From Erwinia pyri (GTDB lineage: Bacteria; Pseudomonadota; Gammaproteobacteria; Enterobacterales; Enterobacteriaceae), in the NCBI RefSeq assembly GCF_030758455.1, contig NZ_CP132353.1, forward strand, positions 2,108,001 through 2,172,000: a stretch of 64,000 nucleotides of DNA. The letters run 5' to 3'. Positions 47,113 to 52,681 of this stretch are shown here, piece after piece. How positions within the stretch are numbered: the first letter of the stretch is position 1; each line of letters opens with the position of its first letter. The notes under the pieces were generated by a model. The model ran no database searches. It saw only the letters and a program-made list of their open reading frames with translations, and was not told the origin of the DNA. A program made the position numbers and the translations under genes.

Positions 47113-47418
47113 TCAGAGCAGGAGTGGCTGTTGGCCTTCTGGTTGAGAGATTACGTCCGGTGTGACTTTTAAACCCTCTGCAGGCACCCACTGGTGCCAC
47201 ATTTCCCAGAACACCTCTGCCACCACCTCTTTAAGAGCTTCAGGACGGAACGTTACACCTTTATATGCCGAACCCATTTTTGCATCAATACGCGCGTCGC
47301 GGTCATGGGTGCCGAGATTCATCACAAAAAAGTCACAGTTCATCGTTAACCAGATGATCCTGCCGCAGGTGCAGGAGGAGGGGTTATGAAGAGTGAGATC
47401 TGTTTTAATAGTGTTCAT
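47113..47418 (-). CDS. small unknown protein coupled to norW
   Basis: 101 residues. It starts in a 4-base ATGA overlap with the norW stop, so it is probably cotranslated as third gene of norVW. It contains a Cys-X-Cys-Gly stretch (SSCTCGRI) and an aromatic/acidic segment (EVVAEVFWEMWHQWVP). A second methionine at codon 26 could also start it. No signal peptide. I do not recognise the family; position suggests a part in NO detoxification or flavorubredoxin maturation. Confidence 0.6.
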   Translation of the reverse strand: MNTIKTDLTLHNPSSCTCGRIIWLTMNCDFFVMNLGTHDRDARIDAKMGSAYKGVTFRPEALKEVVAEVFWEMWHQWVPAEGLKVTPDVISQPEGQQPLLL

Positions 47419-48566
47419 AGCAGGTTTGTCCCGGTGAGCTTAATTTCTTTAAGCATGCTGAACGCCAGCTTCATATGATCTTCACTGACGACAAATGCTC
47501 TTAACAGGTCGTTCTCATCAAAGCCTCTGGCGATAATGCCTGCCGGAGATAACGCCATCTCCCATCGGTAAGAGGCGTTAGCCGGATCGCCTGCAAGATG
47601 AAGGGGCATATCAGGCGTTTTTACCTTGATAAGCATCGCAGGCAGGGTGAGTTTTGCAGGGTTACCGGTCAGGTTCCTGGCAAGAGTCATCGCTGCGAGC
47701 GTTGCGGGTTGCAGGTAGGGCAGCAGTTTTCCCGCTATTTCGGCACAGTCGCCCAGCGCATACACATCGGGAGCGGATGTGGCGAGGGTTTCATCGACGA
47801 CAACCCCATGGCGCACCTCAATGCCCGCACCGCGCGCCAGCGTAAGATCCGGGCGTAAGCCGATGGCACACACAACGGCATCAAAGGTTCTCTTCAGCCC
47901 ATTGCTGAATGAAGCCTGCAGGGCGTCCTGATATCGCGAAAGCTCAGTGAGTTCACTCCTGAAGATGAACTCAACCCCGCTGTGCATTAACCGATTCTGC
48001 AGGCGGGCAGCGATCTCCGGCGGCAGCAGCGCCGAGAGCAGGCTGCTGCTGCGATCCACCACCGTCACAGATTTACCGGCGCGGCTGAAGTCCATCGCAA
48101 GTTCTGTTCCGATAAGTCCACCACCGATCATCAGTACCCGTTCAGCCTCAGCGAGCTTTGCCTGGTAACTGCGGTATTCCTGCTGACTGTTCAGCGTGCA
48201 GATGAAATCACTGCCCTTAACAGCCGGGACGAGAGCCTGAGCACCGGTGGCAAGCACAAGCTTGCCATAGGAGAAGTCGCCAGCGGAGGTTGTGACGACG
48301 TGTGCTGCGGTATCAATTGCTGTGACGCGGGTAAAAGGGTGCAGCATGATGCCCTGACTTTCGGCCCACTCTGCCGCCGTCTGCCGCGTCAGTGAATCAG
48401 CATGACACCCCATACTGAAAACATGACTCAGTTCAGGCTTGTTGTACTCATCACAACTGTCGGCAGCGATAAGACGAACCGGCACATTTTTATCCTGATA
48501 GCGCAGGTTTTTGATCAGCTGCCGGGCAGCGAAGCCGGAGCCAATAACAACAATTTCTGCTGACAC
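47415..48566 (-). CDS. norW: NADH:flavorubredoxin reductase NorW
   Basis: 383 residues. FAD/NAD(P)-disulfide-type reductase with the FAD loop IVVIGSGFAARQLIKNL at the start, the NADH loop VLMIGGGLIGTELAMDF and the second FAD motif VYALGDCAEI. It passes electrons from NADH to the rubredoxin domain of NorV for reduction of nitric oxide to nitrous oxide. It begins at GTG, with GGGAGGG overlapping the end of norV. Four bases separate the norV stop and this start. Confidence 0.93.
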   Translation of the reverse strand: MSAEIVVIGSGFAARQLIKNLRYQDKNVPVRLIAADSCDEYNKPELSHVFSMGCHADSLTRQTAAEWAESQGIMLHPFTRVTAIDTAAHVVTTSAGDFSYGKLVLATGAQALVPAVKGSDFICTLNSQQEYRSYQAKLAEAERVLMIGGGLIGTELAMDFSRAGKSVTVVDRSSSLLSALLPPEIAARLQNRLMHSGVEFIFRSELTELSRYQDALQASFSNGLKRTFDAVVCAIGLRPDLTLARGAGIEVRHGVVVDETLATSAPDVYALGDCAEIAGKLLPYLQPATLAAMTLARNLTGNPAKLTLPAMLIKVKTPDMPLHLAGDPANASYRWEMALSPAGIIARGFDENDLLRAFVVSEDHMKLAFSMLKEIKLTGTNLL

Positions 48567-48569
48567 AGT

Positions 48570-50039
48570 TTAGCCCTCCCAGGGATCGAACACGGATTTA
48601 CCCAGCGCGCATCCGGGACATAAGAAATCATCCGGGACCGCTTCCCACGGGGTTCCTGGCGCTACGTCCTGATCAGGCTCACCCTCTGCCGGATCGTAAA
48701 CCCACTGGCAGACCGTACAGATCATTTTCTGCCCGAGATCTTCACCCGCTTCAACCACGCCAACTCCGTTGCCGTTAACGGGCGCGGCGGCTGCAATAGC
48801 GACAGAGTTGGTATCAGCCACTGGGGCTGGCACAGGCAGCGGCGACAGCGCCCACTCACGGGCAATTTTCCGGCCATGCTCCCGGCACGTTTCCAGAGCG
48901 GAAAGATCGGGGCGCCACTTGGTTTTGAGGGCGATGGTCATATCAAAACCGGCATCCTGCAGACGGGTCGCCACACGATCAACCGCGCCGCCCGTCCAGC
49001 CATAAGAGCCGAAGGCAGAGGCGCGTTTATTGCGGAACTTCAGGCCGGTGATCTCTTCCAGCATCCCCGCGACTTTGGGCATCATCACGTTGTTCATGGT
49101 GGACGATCCCACCAGAATGCCCTTAGAGCGGAAGCAGGAGGTGATAATTTCATTCTTGTCATGGGTGGAGACGTTGTAAACCTTCACGGCGACGCGCGGA
49201 TCGGTTTCCCGGATGCCCTGAGCGATCGCTTCTGCCATCCTGCGCGTATTGTCAGACATGGCGTCATAGAAAAGGGTGATCCGGTCTTCCTGATAATCGG
49301 CAGCCCATTTCAGGTAGAGCTCAATAATCTGGGCAGGATTATCGCGCCACACCACGCCGTGCGAGGTAGCAATCATGCTCACCGGCAGGTTGAATCCCAG
49401 GATTTCGTTAATTTTTGGCGCAACCAGGCGCGCAAAAGGGGTAAGAATATTGGAAAAGTAGCGCTGGCACTGGTCAAACAATTCGTTCTGGTCCACTTCG
49501 TCGTTGAACAGATGCTCATCGCAATAGTGCTGGCCGAAGGCGTCATTGCTGAACAGTACCGCATCTTCGGTGATATAGGTCATCATGCTGTCAGGCCAGT
49601 GCAGCATCGGCGTTTCCACAAAGATAAGTTTTTTACCGTTGCCGATATCGAGCGAATCGCCGGTTTTAACAATGTTGAAATTCCATTCAGGGTGATGATG
49701 ATGCCCGTTGATGGAATCGACGCCGTTGGCCGTGCAGTAAATCGGGGTTCCCGGGATCAGTGCCAGCAGTTCAGCGAGTGCGCCGGCATGATCTTCTTCC
49801 GCATGGTTAATCACGATGGCATCGATGGTTTTCAGATCGATCTCTTCCGCCAGATTGTTGACGAAATCGCTGCGGAATTTCAGATCAACGGTATCGATAA
49901 GGATGTTTTTCCCTTCGCGGATCAGGTAGCTGTTGTAACTGGTGCCACGCTGCATTTTGTATTCTTTGCCGTGAAAATGCTCAACTTCCCAGTCTCTTTT
50001 ACCTACCCAGAATATGTTGTTTTTTACGTGAATATTCAT
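48570..50039 (-). CDS. norV: anaerobic nitric oxide reductase flavorubredoxin NorV
   Basis: 489 residues. An N-terminal beta-lactamase-like diiron domain carries ligands His79, Glu81, Asp83 and His84 in [11 protein letters not shown], at the E. coli numbering. Next come a flavodoxin domain (about 250-395, [18 protein letters not shown]) and, after a linker, a rubredoxin domain with two CXXC pairs ([17 protein letters not shown]). Cytoplasmic NO reductase used under low oxygen. It is driven by the sigma-54 promoter at 50080 with three NorR boxes upstream. Confidence 0.96.
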
Positions 50040-50079: not shown

Positions 50080-50095
50080 TGCATTAAGTATGCCA
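50080..50095 (-). promoter_or_regulatory. sigma-54 promoter of norVW
   Basis: On the minus strand TGGCATACTTAATGCA shows the -24 GG and -12 GC at the required 10-base interval, about 40 bases before the norV ATG. Confidence 0.82.
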
Positions 50096-50138
50096 ATTTT
50101 TAAGCTATTGATCTGATGATCTATTTTTCAATTACCTT

Positions 50139-50192
50139 GTTTTTATGACTATAACTATTTTTGTGTTTTAAACAATGAGTTGTTTTAATGAC
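50139..50192 (-). promoter_or_regulatory. three NorR boxes upstream of norV
   Basis: Three GT-N7-AC elements: GTTTTTATGAC (50139), GTGTTTTAAAC (50163) and GTTTTAATGAC (50182), starts 24 and 19 bp apart. NorR of E. coli binds three GT-N7-AC sites upstream of its norV promoter. The nearest box lies 45 bp from the -24 GG element. Confidence 0.75.
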
Positions 50193-50205
50193 AAAGCGTC
50201 AGGCA

Positions 50206-50228
50206 TAAAAAAACCCGCCGGAGCGGGT
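50206..50228 (-). terminator. rho-independent terminator of ydcY-yeaR operon
   Basis: On the minus strand ACCCGC-TCCG-GCGGGT followed by seven T residues, just past the yeaR-like stop at 50245. It insulates that operon from the norV enhancer. Confidence 0.88.
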
Positions 50229-50244
50229 AAAGGGCAAGCAGTAG

Positions 50245-50604
50245 TCATGACGATTTAGGGATATGAACTTCACGTGAAAATCCTTGCCCCTCCAATATCA
50301 CATTCGGATCGGCAAAAAAATCAATATTAAAATAAGTATCGTCACTTAAAAGCTCAATGCAATGCCAGTATTGCGGCGGGCTGATGCCAAATTCTCCTGC
50401 CGTGATGGTGACCTCCATTTCATGCTCACGCGCTGTTTCACTGGCGTAGCCATAATATTTTACGGCGCCACGCATTACTGACAGCCTGCCGTACACGCCT
50501 TTTTTGGTGTTGTGGTGTGTCAACAGGGCCTTTGGCACGCTCTCTTGATCCCAGAAAGGAGTAGAGCGGGTATGAGTAAAATTTTTAGGGATGGTATGGG
50601 ACAT
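50245..50604 (-). CDS. yeaR: YeaR-like DUF1971 protein
   Basis: 119 residues of the DUF1971/cupin-like family, close to E. coli YeaR: FTHTRSTPFWDQESVPKALL, GVYGRLSVMRGAVKYYGYA and WHCIELLSDDTYFNIDFFADP. E. coli yeaR is induced by nitrate and nitric oxide and is reported to be NsrR-repressed; its biochemical role is unclear. Here it is the last gene of a three-gene operon next to norVW. The ATG at 50604 follows CAGGAGAT; longer frames lack a site. Confidence 0.88.
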   Translation of the reverse strand: MSHTIPKNFTHTRSTPFWDQESVPKALLTHHNTKKGVYGRLSVMRGAVKYYGYASETAREHEMEVTITAGEFGISPPQYWHCIELLSDDTYFNIDFFADPNVILEGQGFSREVHIPKSS

Positions 50605-50617
50605 CAGAGATCTCCTG

Positions 50618-50851
50618 TTAACTAATGAGGCCGCCGTGGGTAAGCCAGTTACGGCGCTGTTCGGCCAGCTCTTCTTTCTCGGTAGCGTGTTTGAAAACGG
50701 CCAGGCGCAGGCGCTGTTGCTGCTCAAAACGTTCCTCACGGGTGAGCGCGTGGTCGTCGCTGAGTTGACACAAAAGCACGTTCATATCGTGGATCACATT
50801 CTTCAGGATGGCGGCATCGACCGCTTTAATGACTTCATCTGTATGGTTCAT
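50618..50851 (-). CDS. ydcY: YdcY-like DUF2526 protein
   Basis: 77 residues, the same length as E. coli YdcY, with matching DEVIKAVDAAI, HMNVLL-like and LSDDHALTREERFEQQQRLR segments. Helical, soluble, of unknown function. It has no ribosome site of its own; its ATG overlaps the stop of the 53-codon ORF upstream (ATGA), so translation is probably coupled. The yeaR-like gene follows by 13 bases. Location suggests induction by nitric oxide. Confidence 0.85.
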   Translation of the reverse strand: MNHTDEVIKAVDAAILKNVIHDMNVLLCQLSDDHALTREERFEQQQRLRLAVFKHATEKEELAEQRRNWLTHGGLIS

Positions 50852-51009
50852 GGTTTAACCCAGCGTATGGAGCTGTTGCAAAAGGAGCTTTGTTTATATT
50901 TTAGGGCAGGTCCGCGATGCGTGCTGCCGAAAGCTGCCCATCTCAGGGCGCTGGCGGCACATTTCATCTCTTCAGCGCTGAGCGCTCTGGCGGGTTCGCG
51001 ATTTAACAT
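50848..51009 (-). CDS. 53-residue ORF leading the ydcY-yeaR operon
   Basis: Starts MLNREPARALSAEEMKCAAS and ends SSIRWVKP. A strong GAGGAG (51017-51022) lies 7 bases before the ATG, and the stop overlaps the ydcY start by four bases. The promoter at 51046 would place the transcript start about 25 bases upstream. It could be a leader that couples translation, or a real small protein; its N-terminal half looks like a short helix rich in Ala. No homologue is recalled. Confidence 0.6.
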   Translation of the reverse strand: MLNREPARALSAEEMKCAASALRWAAFGSTHRGPALKYKQSSFCNSSIRWVKP

Positions 51010-51045
51010 GGTTCTACTCCTCAAATAAATGACCTGACCTTATTA

Positions 51046-51061
51046 CGCATATTCCGTGCCA
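51046..51061 (-). promoter_or_regulatory. sigma-54 promoter of the 53-aa ORF-ydcY-yeaR operon
   Basis: On the minus strand TGGCACGGAATATGCG matches the sigma-54 consensus TGGCACG-N4-TTGC with both GG and GC at correct spacing. It is 37 bases before the first ATG of the operon. Confidence 0.85.
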
Positions 51062-51105
51062 ATTGATAAGAGGTTGATTTAAAACAAACGGACAAAGGGA
51101 TGATT

Positions 51106-51157
51106 GTTATAATTACAAAGATTCTCTTGTTATAAAGACAAGGTTTGTAAAGGTGAC
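51106..51157. promoter_or_regulatory. three NorR boxes between yeaR operon and norR
   Basis: GTTATAATTAC (51106), GTTATAAAGAC (51129) and GTAAAGGTGAC (51147) are three GT-N7-AC elements with starts 23 and 18 bp apart. The nearest is 46 bp from the -24 GG of the leftward sigma-54 promoter. The last box overlaps the norR ribosome site, so binding would also limit norR expression. Confidence 0.78.
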
Positions 51158-51160
51158 AAT

Positions 51161-52681
51161 ATGACTTTATCTGTCGGGACGCTGGCTTCGCTGGCTGTCG
51201 ATATTCAGAATGGTGTGCGCGGCCGCGATCGTTTTATGCGGATGATTAACAGTATCCACAGCGCCTTAGGCTGTGATGCTACTGCGCTGCTACGTTATGA
51301 AAATCAGCAGTTCCGCCCGCTGGCCACGGCCGGTCTGGCGCCGGATGTGATGGGCCGCCGGTTTAACCTTGAAGCCCATCCGCGGCTTGAAGCGATCGCC
51401 CGCGCCGGGGATGTGGTGCGCTTTCCCGCCGAGAGCGATTTACCCGATCCCTATGACGGGCTTATCCCGGAACAGGGCGATCTGCATGTCCACGCCTGCG
51501 TCGGCATGCCTCTTTTTGCGGGGCAGACGCTGATCGGCGCGCTGACCCTGGACGGTATGAACGCCACCCAGTTTGATGATTACAGCGATGAAGAGTTGCG
51601 GGTTCTGGCCAGCCTGACTGCGGGGGCGCTGAACAACGCATTACTGGTTGAAGAGCTGGAAAAACCTGCATCGTCATTTACGCCACAGCCGCACCGGCCG
51701 GAGGAAAATGAGGAAGTTGAAATTATCGGCAAGTCAGCGGCATTGACGCATCTTAAAAAAGAGATAAGCGTCGTTGCCCCCTCTGACCTGAGCGTGCTGA
51801 TAATGGGCGAAACGGGGACCGGCAAAGAGCTGGTCGCCCGGGCTGTTCATCAACAATCCCATCGCGCTGCGCAACCGCTGATCTATCTCAACTGCGCCGC
51901 GTTACCGGAAAGCGTGGCGGAAAGCGAGCTGTTTGGTCACGTTAAAGGGGCCTTTACCGGCGCTATACACGACCGGCCAGGAAAGTTTGAGCTGGCGGAT
52001 AAAGGGACGCTGTTTCTGGATGAAATTGGCGAGTTGCCGCTTGCGCTACAGGCTAAACTTTTACGCGTGCTGCAGTATGGCGATTTACAACGGGTCGGCG
52101 AAGATAAGCCGCTTACTGTCGATGTGCGGATTATTGCGGCCACTAACCTGAATATGCGCACGGCAGTTACGGAGGGTAAATTCAGGGCCGATCTCTATCA
52201 CCGTCTGAGCGTTTTCCCCCTGTTTGTCCCGTCGCTTAACGAGCGTCGTGACGATATTGTGTTACTGGCTGGCTACTTCAGTGAAAAGTGTCGGATAAAA
52301 TTTGGCCTTACCAGCGTCGCGCTCAGCCCGGCCTTCAGCGCTATGCTTGAAGCGGCAGAGTGGCCGGGCAATATTCGCGAGCTGGAACATACTCTCTATC
52401 GCGCGGTAATCATCGCCCAGGCAGAGTCGCACAGCGGGGAAATCATTCTGCTTCCACACCATTTCAATTCAGAGGGCGGTAAACCCCTTTATCCAGCGCA
52501 GACCACTTCCCAGAAGATAACGCCGGCGATGAGTTTGCATGATGCGACCCGCCAGTTTCAGTACGATTATATAAAACAAGCGTATGAAAGCAGCGGGCGG
52601 GTCTGGGTCAGAACGGCGCGGACGTTGGGAGTTGATCCTGGCAATCTTCACAGGTTGGCAGTAAAACTTGGCCTGAAGTAA
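51161..52681 (+). CDS. norR: nitric oxide-responsive transcription activator NorR
   Basis: 506 residues (E. coli 504). The N-terminal GAF domain holds the ferrous iron ligands implicated in NO sensing at the same numbers as in E. coli: Arg75, Asp96, Asp99, His111, Cys113 and Asp131. The AAA+ domain follows with Walker A GETGTGKE (216-223) and the sigma-54 contact loop GAFTGA (263-268); a C-terminal helix-turn-helix ends in [18 protein letters not shown] binding relieves GAF repression and activates sigma-54 promoters. AAAGGTGAC precedes the ATG. Confidence 0.96.

Follow-up and report, generated by a model that had tools for sequence, protein, structure and literature searches.

The flavorubredoxin operon norVW of E. 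coli is known from the literature to be controlled by NorR, acting through three enhancer sites and a sigma-54 promoter, with IHF included in the promoter scheme published in PMC4601167. On the basis of genomic SELEX, NorR of E. coli K-12 has been described as having a single target (PMC8249747). Outside the enterobacteria, NorR regulons set a precedent for targets beyond norVW: in PMC1274295, Rodionov et al. 2005 assign norVW, norB, hmp, hcp, dnrN and nnrS to NorR in various bacteria, a second NorR target is on record for V. cholerae, tehB homologues are placed in NsrR regulons, and the main text contains 0 mentions of yeaR. In E. coli, the yeaR-yoaG operon codes for a DUF1971 protein and responds to NO (PMC5320621, PMC7082413). 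In a nitrate/NO experiment with E. coli CFT073, yeaR was 160-fold up and among the most strongly induced genes, and in the same strain yeaR-yoaG, tehAB and ydcX were described as dispensable for one inducible NO-scavenging activity (PMC5320621). Our search of the open-access literature, in which "yeaR" is confounded with "year", turned up no paper stating that NorR controls yeaR or ydcY.

Here, we analyzed a 64,000-nucleotide stretch of the Erwinia pyri genome, hereafter the window. Its norR-norVW region resembles that of E. coli in having three GT-N7-AC boxes, a sigma-54 promoter, an IHF-like site between them, a divergent norR and the same NorR iron ligands, but it holds two such units and a second operon. 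It resembles yeaR-yoaG in placing a DUF1971 protein under a predicted NO-responsive promoter, but has no DUF1869 gene and carries NorR-type sites, NsrR and NarL being the regulators of the E. coli operon. The YeaR domain is also found at the N terminus of the Haemophilus type of TehB (PDB 3m70), a methyltransferase fusion that is absent from the window's cluster. From comparative sequence analysis, we consider it likely that the cluster comprises two separate NorR switches, the norR-side one driving a small operon with its own terminator and the other driving norVW, so that one NO signal would turn on flavorubredoxin together with a YeaR-type protein.

A small operon with its own putative NorR switch

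In the window, norR (51161..52681, plus strand) and norVW (minus strand) lie about 1.1 kb apart, with three minus-strand frames between them. The norR gene, the only copy in this genome, encodes a 506-aa NO-sensing sigma-54 activator with GAF and sigma-54 activator domains; the protein carries the GAFTGA motif together with R75, R81, D96, D99, C113 and D131, where we assume that R81 belongs with the iron ligands. The remaining five are ligands named in PMC4601167. On the other side, norV (48570..50039, minus strand) encodes a flavorubredoxin with ODP/lactamase, flavodoxin and rubredoxin domains, and norW (47415..48566, minus strand) its reductase, with Pyr_redox_2 and Rbx_binding domains. Right after norW, a 101-aa frame (47113-47418, minus strand) that is without a Pfam match shares 58-72% identity with frames downstream of norW at 7 of the 13 Pantoea- or Erwinia-type loci searched, and probably belongs to the norVW operon as an additional gene.

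The intervening frames, all on the minus strand, are a 53-aa ORF (50848..51009), a ydcY-type gene for a 77-aa DUF2526 protein (50618..50851; Pfam PF10735, E 8e-25, the full-length domain at residues 1-76) and a yeaR-type gene for a 119-aa DUF1971 protein (50245..50604; Pfam PF09313, E 2e-27; solved relatives 3bb6, 3dl3 and 3m70). Upstream of this operon, far (51147..51157), middle (51129..51139) and near (51106..51116) GT-N7-AC boxes precede a predicted sigma-54 promoter, the 16-mer TGGCACGGAATATGCG at 51046..51061; upstream of norV, far (50182..50192), middle (50163..50173) and near (50139..50149) boxes precede the predicted sigma-54 promoter TGGCATACTTAATGCA at 50080..50095, with all of these elements again on the minus strand. 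The geometry of the original prediction was reproduced exactly, with box starts at 50139, 50163 and 50182 (24 and 19 bp apart) for norV and at 51106, 51129 and 51147 (23 and 18 bp apart) for the small operon, nearest boxes lying 45 and 46 bp, respectively, from the -24 GG, and a good sigma-54 promoter beside each triple. Counted to the sigma-54 match, the near box lies 43-44 bp away at both switches, with a gap of 44 at the small operon.

The same prediction had overlooked an IHF-like site in each switch. Scored against WATCARNNNNTTR, which we take to be the IHF consensus, AATCAACCTCTTA at the small operon (51067..51079, minus strand) is a strict match and GATCAATAGCTTA at norV (50101..50113, minus strand) has one mismatch, both sites lying at the same offset. 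Strict matches occur in 11 of 26 aligned switches, all at one offset, against a mean of 0.5 and a maximum of 4 in shuffles; none was found in the other 15 aligned switches or in nine separate yeaR switches described below.

Neither main motif proves anything alone, since GT-N7-AC is common (163 matches in the window, mean of 144 in shuffles) and a loose sigma-54 scan gives fewer matches (88) than the shuffle mean (127). Triples of GT-N7-AC boxes with 15-27 bp spacing number exactly two in the window, the norV and small-operon switches. The 200 locally shuffled windows together contained 17 triples, and a triple with a sigma-54 match at 40-47 bp was found neither in them (0 of 200) nor in a control set of 30 ydcY loci taken from other genomes of the family and totalling 96,951 bases, so a chance origin of the two joint motifs was rejected.

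Downstream of yeaR, an intrinsic terminator is predicted at 50203..50228 (minus strand), with a stem at 50213-50228 followed by a T-rich tail. The terminator scan is weak by itself (1 found, 1.4 expected in shuffles); by eye, stem-loops of like kind occupy the corresponding position in 8/8 relatives, the weakest being that of P. deserta. Such a terminator would make the small operon and norVW separate units, which would explain why norV keeps a switch of its own.

Conservation, origin and decay of the cluster

The order norR, switch, small protein, ydcY, yeaR, switch, norVW was found in nine clusters, with yeaR missing in P. piersonii: that of the window, those of six Pantoea genomes, and those of two Pantoea plasmids (P. 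agglomerans Pa58 and Pantoea sp. S18). Both triples and both sigma-54 sites are present in all nine. Boxes are spaced 18/23-24 in the small-operon switch and 19/24-25 in the norV switch, and the promoter stands 41-45 bp away from the near box, the small-operon values being 42-44 bp (44 in the window, 42-43 in the relatives). Identity is 100% in the box and promoter cores, a value partly built in because GT and AC were required in finding the triples, and averages only 53-55% outside them. Loss of the boxes in relatives that keep the operon had been named beforehand as an observation that would speak against a second NorR-type operon carrying ydcY and yeaR; none of the eight relatives checked had lost them, and this conservation strongly supports the predicted operon.

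The further proposal that the NorR module is duplicated holds for its architecture and fails for its sequence, as the global alignment of the two regions was equalled by 21 of 500 shuffles. Switches at the same position are on average 60% (small operon) and 59% (norV) identical across genomes, and the two switches within one genome 50%, against 52% for unrelated pairs; a recent duplication of the norV control region was therefore rejected.

In a tree of 41 NorR proteins (12 from cluster or genus loci and 29 from the 63 other family loci), the nine same-layout clusters form one clade (100/100), which shows a single origin for them as far as the NorR tree can be read. The window NorR falls inside this clade, beside that of a P. 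agglomerans plasmid. Within its own genus, NorR was detected at E 1e-100 in 4 of 37 genomes, and the other three copies, all beside norV, are 67-69% identical to it, compared with 85% for P. piersonii. SspA of the window genome has the opposite affinity, being 97-99% identical to that of five members of the genus but 90% identical to that of P. piersonii. Because SspA is nearer to the genus members and NorR nearer to P. piersonii, the cluster was probably acquired horizontally, from the Pantoea side; its presence on plasmids fits such an acquisition.

A reading of the 53-aa ORF as a normal gene was rejected: an 85-86-aa protein is encoded at the same place in 8/8 relatives, and the window copy is a frameshifted remnant. 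Relative to P. piersonii, the window is 104 bp shorter within the small gene, which shifts the frame, and the start-to-start distance to ydcY is 158 bp instead of 262. The window copy, cut to 53 aa, does not have the full-length frame with a conserved C-terminal half that characterizes the 85-86-aa family. As a query, the 53-aa ORF found one other locus in the 37 genus genomes, a weak match in Pantoea sp. IMH. The small protein of Pantoea sp. IMH in turn found 13 homologues among 5.8 billion proteins and matches in 2/392 family genomes, while an alignment search of the genome-contig collection gave seven loci, all labelled Pantoea. AlphaFold produced a moderate model (mean pLDDT 74.5) with a helix, three strands and a helix, and because the best Foldseek hit in the PDB, at E 0.14, fell short of the 0.001 cutoff, we claim no fold for it.

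Pantoea sp. IMH, the seventh of these loci, has norR adjoining norV and carries a small-protein-ydcY pair elsewhere in its genome, with its own triple (19/25) and sigma-54 promoter and no norR beside it. The gene ahead of this pair is presumably opgD.

The operon decays. Its small gene is broken in the window, yeaR is missing from the P. piersonii cluster, and three further P. agglomerans plasmids (L238-L240) have all lost the small gene, ydcY and the 5' portion of yeaR through a deletion that fuses the first codons of the small-protein frame with yeaR at about its codon 25. As a consequence, a 5'-truncated yeaR now stands directly behind a NorR-type promoter. The norR-side triple is whole in two of these plasmids, the middle box being changed in L239, and the norV triple is whole in all three.

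A YeaR lineage recurs at NorR-type switches

YeaR was matched in 114/392 genomes, and we examined the best 30 loci from these 114, or 29 without the window's own. Among these 29 nearest loci, nine yeaR genes have a NorR-type switch of their own, seven stand behind norVW and 13 follow a yoaG-type gene. Each of the nine separate switches combines a triple and a sigma-54 site 53-88 bp before the gene, with a box-to-promoter gap of 54-56. Where yeaR lies behind norW, a triple is found upstream of norV in 7/7 loci, with norR elsewhere in the genome in three. All 15 such genomes searched proved to have NorR. The 13 yoaG-linked loci consist of a yeaR, a yoaG-type gene (the one protein checked is DUF1869) and a second yeaR of the window's lineage, and no NorR-type switch was found at them. 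Nor was one found within the 9-10 kb examined around yeaR in E. sorbitola, in Pantoea sp. IMH (copy C6) and in a third genome (G006). In one genome (G251; L224 and L245), yeaR stands behind norW although a separate triple and sigma-54 site lie between the two genes, with norR far away.

On the YeaR tree, which is built from a short protein and whose bootstrap had not settled, the copies that precede yoaG split off as a lineage of their own (100/100). Within the window's lineage, the arrangements are interleaved, and "own switch" and "behind norW" each require three or more forced changes, counts that are slightly off because P. deserta was placed in the wrong label group (14 labelled, 13 true; the operon group should be 8). 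E. coli YeaR groups with the yoaG-linked copies, being 64-69% identical to copies upstream of DUF1869 (yoaG) and 48-58% to the window's lineage. The window gene had been taken for E. coli yeaR, and the tree and these identities together place the two in different lineages.

The DUF1971 domain also follows norW in other forms. Stand-alone YeaR occurs there in 4/57 family loci, two of them with two copies, and TehB with an N-terminal DUF1971 domain in 9/57; the same fusion follows norW in two genus members (G021, Pantoea sp. IMH, for which the domains were confirmed, and G012), and TehB without the DUF1971 domain in a third (G025). The NorR-yeaR link had been proposed for the source lineage and is not confined to it. 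With NorR-type switches or norVW-linked positions found in several genera, the link of the window's YeaR lineage to NorR is, on this gene-context evidence, a wide one.

YdcY differs in this respect. It was matched in 37/119 family genomes, and none of the 30 loci examined has a triple, which led us to reject a NorR-type switch as the usual context of ydcY. We found ydcY behind a NorR-type switch in no setting other than the Pantoea-type clusters and the Pantoea sp. IMH genome, so that YdcY is, as judged from its predicted promoters, without a wide NorR link.

A proposed one-signal regulon and its alternatives

In the scheme we favor, NO would activate NorR at the three boxes of each switch, and an IHF bend would help NorR act on sigma-54 RNA polymerase at each promoter. 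The norR-side switch would drive the small-protein gene (here a remnant), ydcY and yeaR, ending at its own terminator, while the second switch would drive norVW, so that flavorubredoxin and the YeaR-type protein would be turned on together by one NO signal. For the second promoter, binding by NorR and induction by NO are inferred, as is the idea that YeaR limits or repairs nitrosative damage.

The norR-side boxes might instead be an ancestral triple left in place that serves only norR autoregulation, which is known in E. coli (PMC8249747), with the small-operon sigma-54 site idle; the far box indeed stops 3 bp before norR, as it does in genus relatives where norR lies directly beside norV. We regard this as highly improbable, since the sigma-54 match is kept in 9/9 clusters at 42-44 bp and a triple with a promoter also occurs at the unlinked small-protein-ydcY locus of Pantoea sp. 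IMH and at the nine unlinked yeaR genes. The operon could also be mainly under another regulator, NsrR or NarL, as is E. coli yeaR-yoaG, with NorR adding little. E. coli yeaR is NsrR-controlled (PMC5320621, PMC7082413), and NorR could leave such control in place, but the best NsrR match before the operon, scored without a control, covers 10/16 positions, and a loose sigma-70 scan upstream of the operon found no site; such control as the main one is likewise highly improbable in our estimation. The NsrR motif used in this scoring is our own assumption, close to that in PMC5320621.

How the second switch arose, and what its products do, are questions on which the alternatives weigh more. That the norV control region was duplicated around an inserted gene, instead of an operon arriving with its own switch, we regard as less likely than not: the architecture is the same on both sides of the insertion, and norV switches are slightly nearer to loci without the insertion (58%) than small-operon switches are (53%), but the two switches within one genome are no more alike than unrelated pairs, and Pantoea sp. 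IMH carries an unlinked small-protein-ydcY unit that already includes a switch. It is unlikely, though less so than the alternatives on control, that NorR controls the operon while its products are irrelevant to NO defence and merely co-expressed, for instance with a tellurite or metal function. To our knowledge, YeaR has no known biochemical function, its domain is shared with the tellurite protein TehB, and the operon has decayed repeatedly. Against this, several genera repeatedly show either the window's YeaR lineage or a TehB fusion with this domain at NorR-type switches or after norVW, and the NorR-linked arrangements are interleaved on the YeaR tree. The claim that both proteins act in NO defence therefore stands in part, for the YeaR-type protein; YdcY is much less supported.

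We accordingly return to two NorR switches sharing one NO signal, and read YeaR as an NO-stress accessory protein repeatedly taken up by NorR systems. More broadly, we lean slightly towards the view that the YeaR lineage apart from E. coli yeaR-yoaG is an overlooked, recurrent enterobacterial member of the NorR regulon, captured independently several times (with its own three-box switch, behind norVW, in the small operon, and as the front domain of TehB), which would identify DUF1971 as a functional partner in flavorubredoxin-type NO defence and the 85-86-aa protein as a further new NO-response family. What appears new here is that a NorR regulon grows by gaining whole enhancer-promoter units, YeaR-type proteins being the recurrent cargo, and the comparison would offer a clear case of a regulator gaining targets in this way. 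If YeaR relatives do answer to a dedicated NO sensor, their function would lie near NO detoxification or repair, and simple genetics would become possible on a one-signal regulon of norVW and yeaR.

norR-norV loci across the family

In a sample of 198 family genomes, we found 63 other NorR loci, 58 of them with norV close by and 57 of these 58 with a triple in between. Insertion of the small protein, ydcY or yeaR between norR and norV was seen in none of these. At the remaining five loci (L120, L122, L126, L127 and L136), norV is absent from the 3 kb upstream. Two genomes (G135 and G145) carry a norVW-yeaR set with a triple elsewhere in the genome. The third gene after norW was checked in 57 of the 58 loci, one (G086) being left out at a contig end, and at one locus (L147) over only 767 bases.

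Our sigma-54 filter requires GC at -12, and many norV promoters of the E. coli type, which by eye read GT, escape it, so that promoters were found at 32 of the 58 loci. The gap between near box and promoter, 41-45 bp in the Pantoea/Erwinia type, is 54-55 bp in most of these family loci (17/32, a count that does not include the E. coli norV region). The norV switches fall into two main classes, of 42-43 bp (13/32) and 54-55 bp, with a gap of 62 bp in 2/32; the two classes lie about one helical turn apart.
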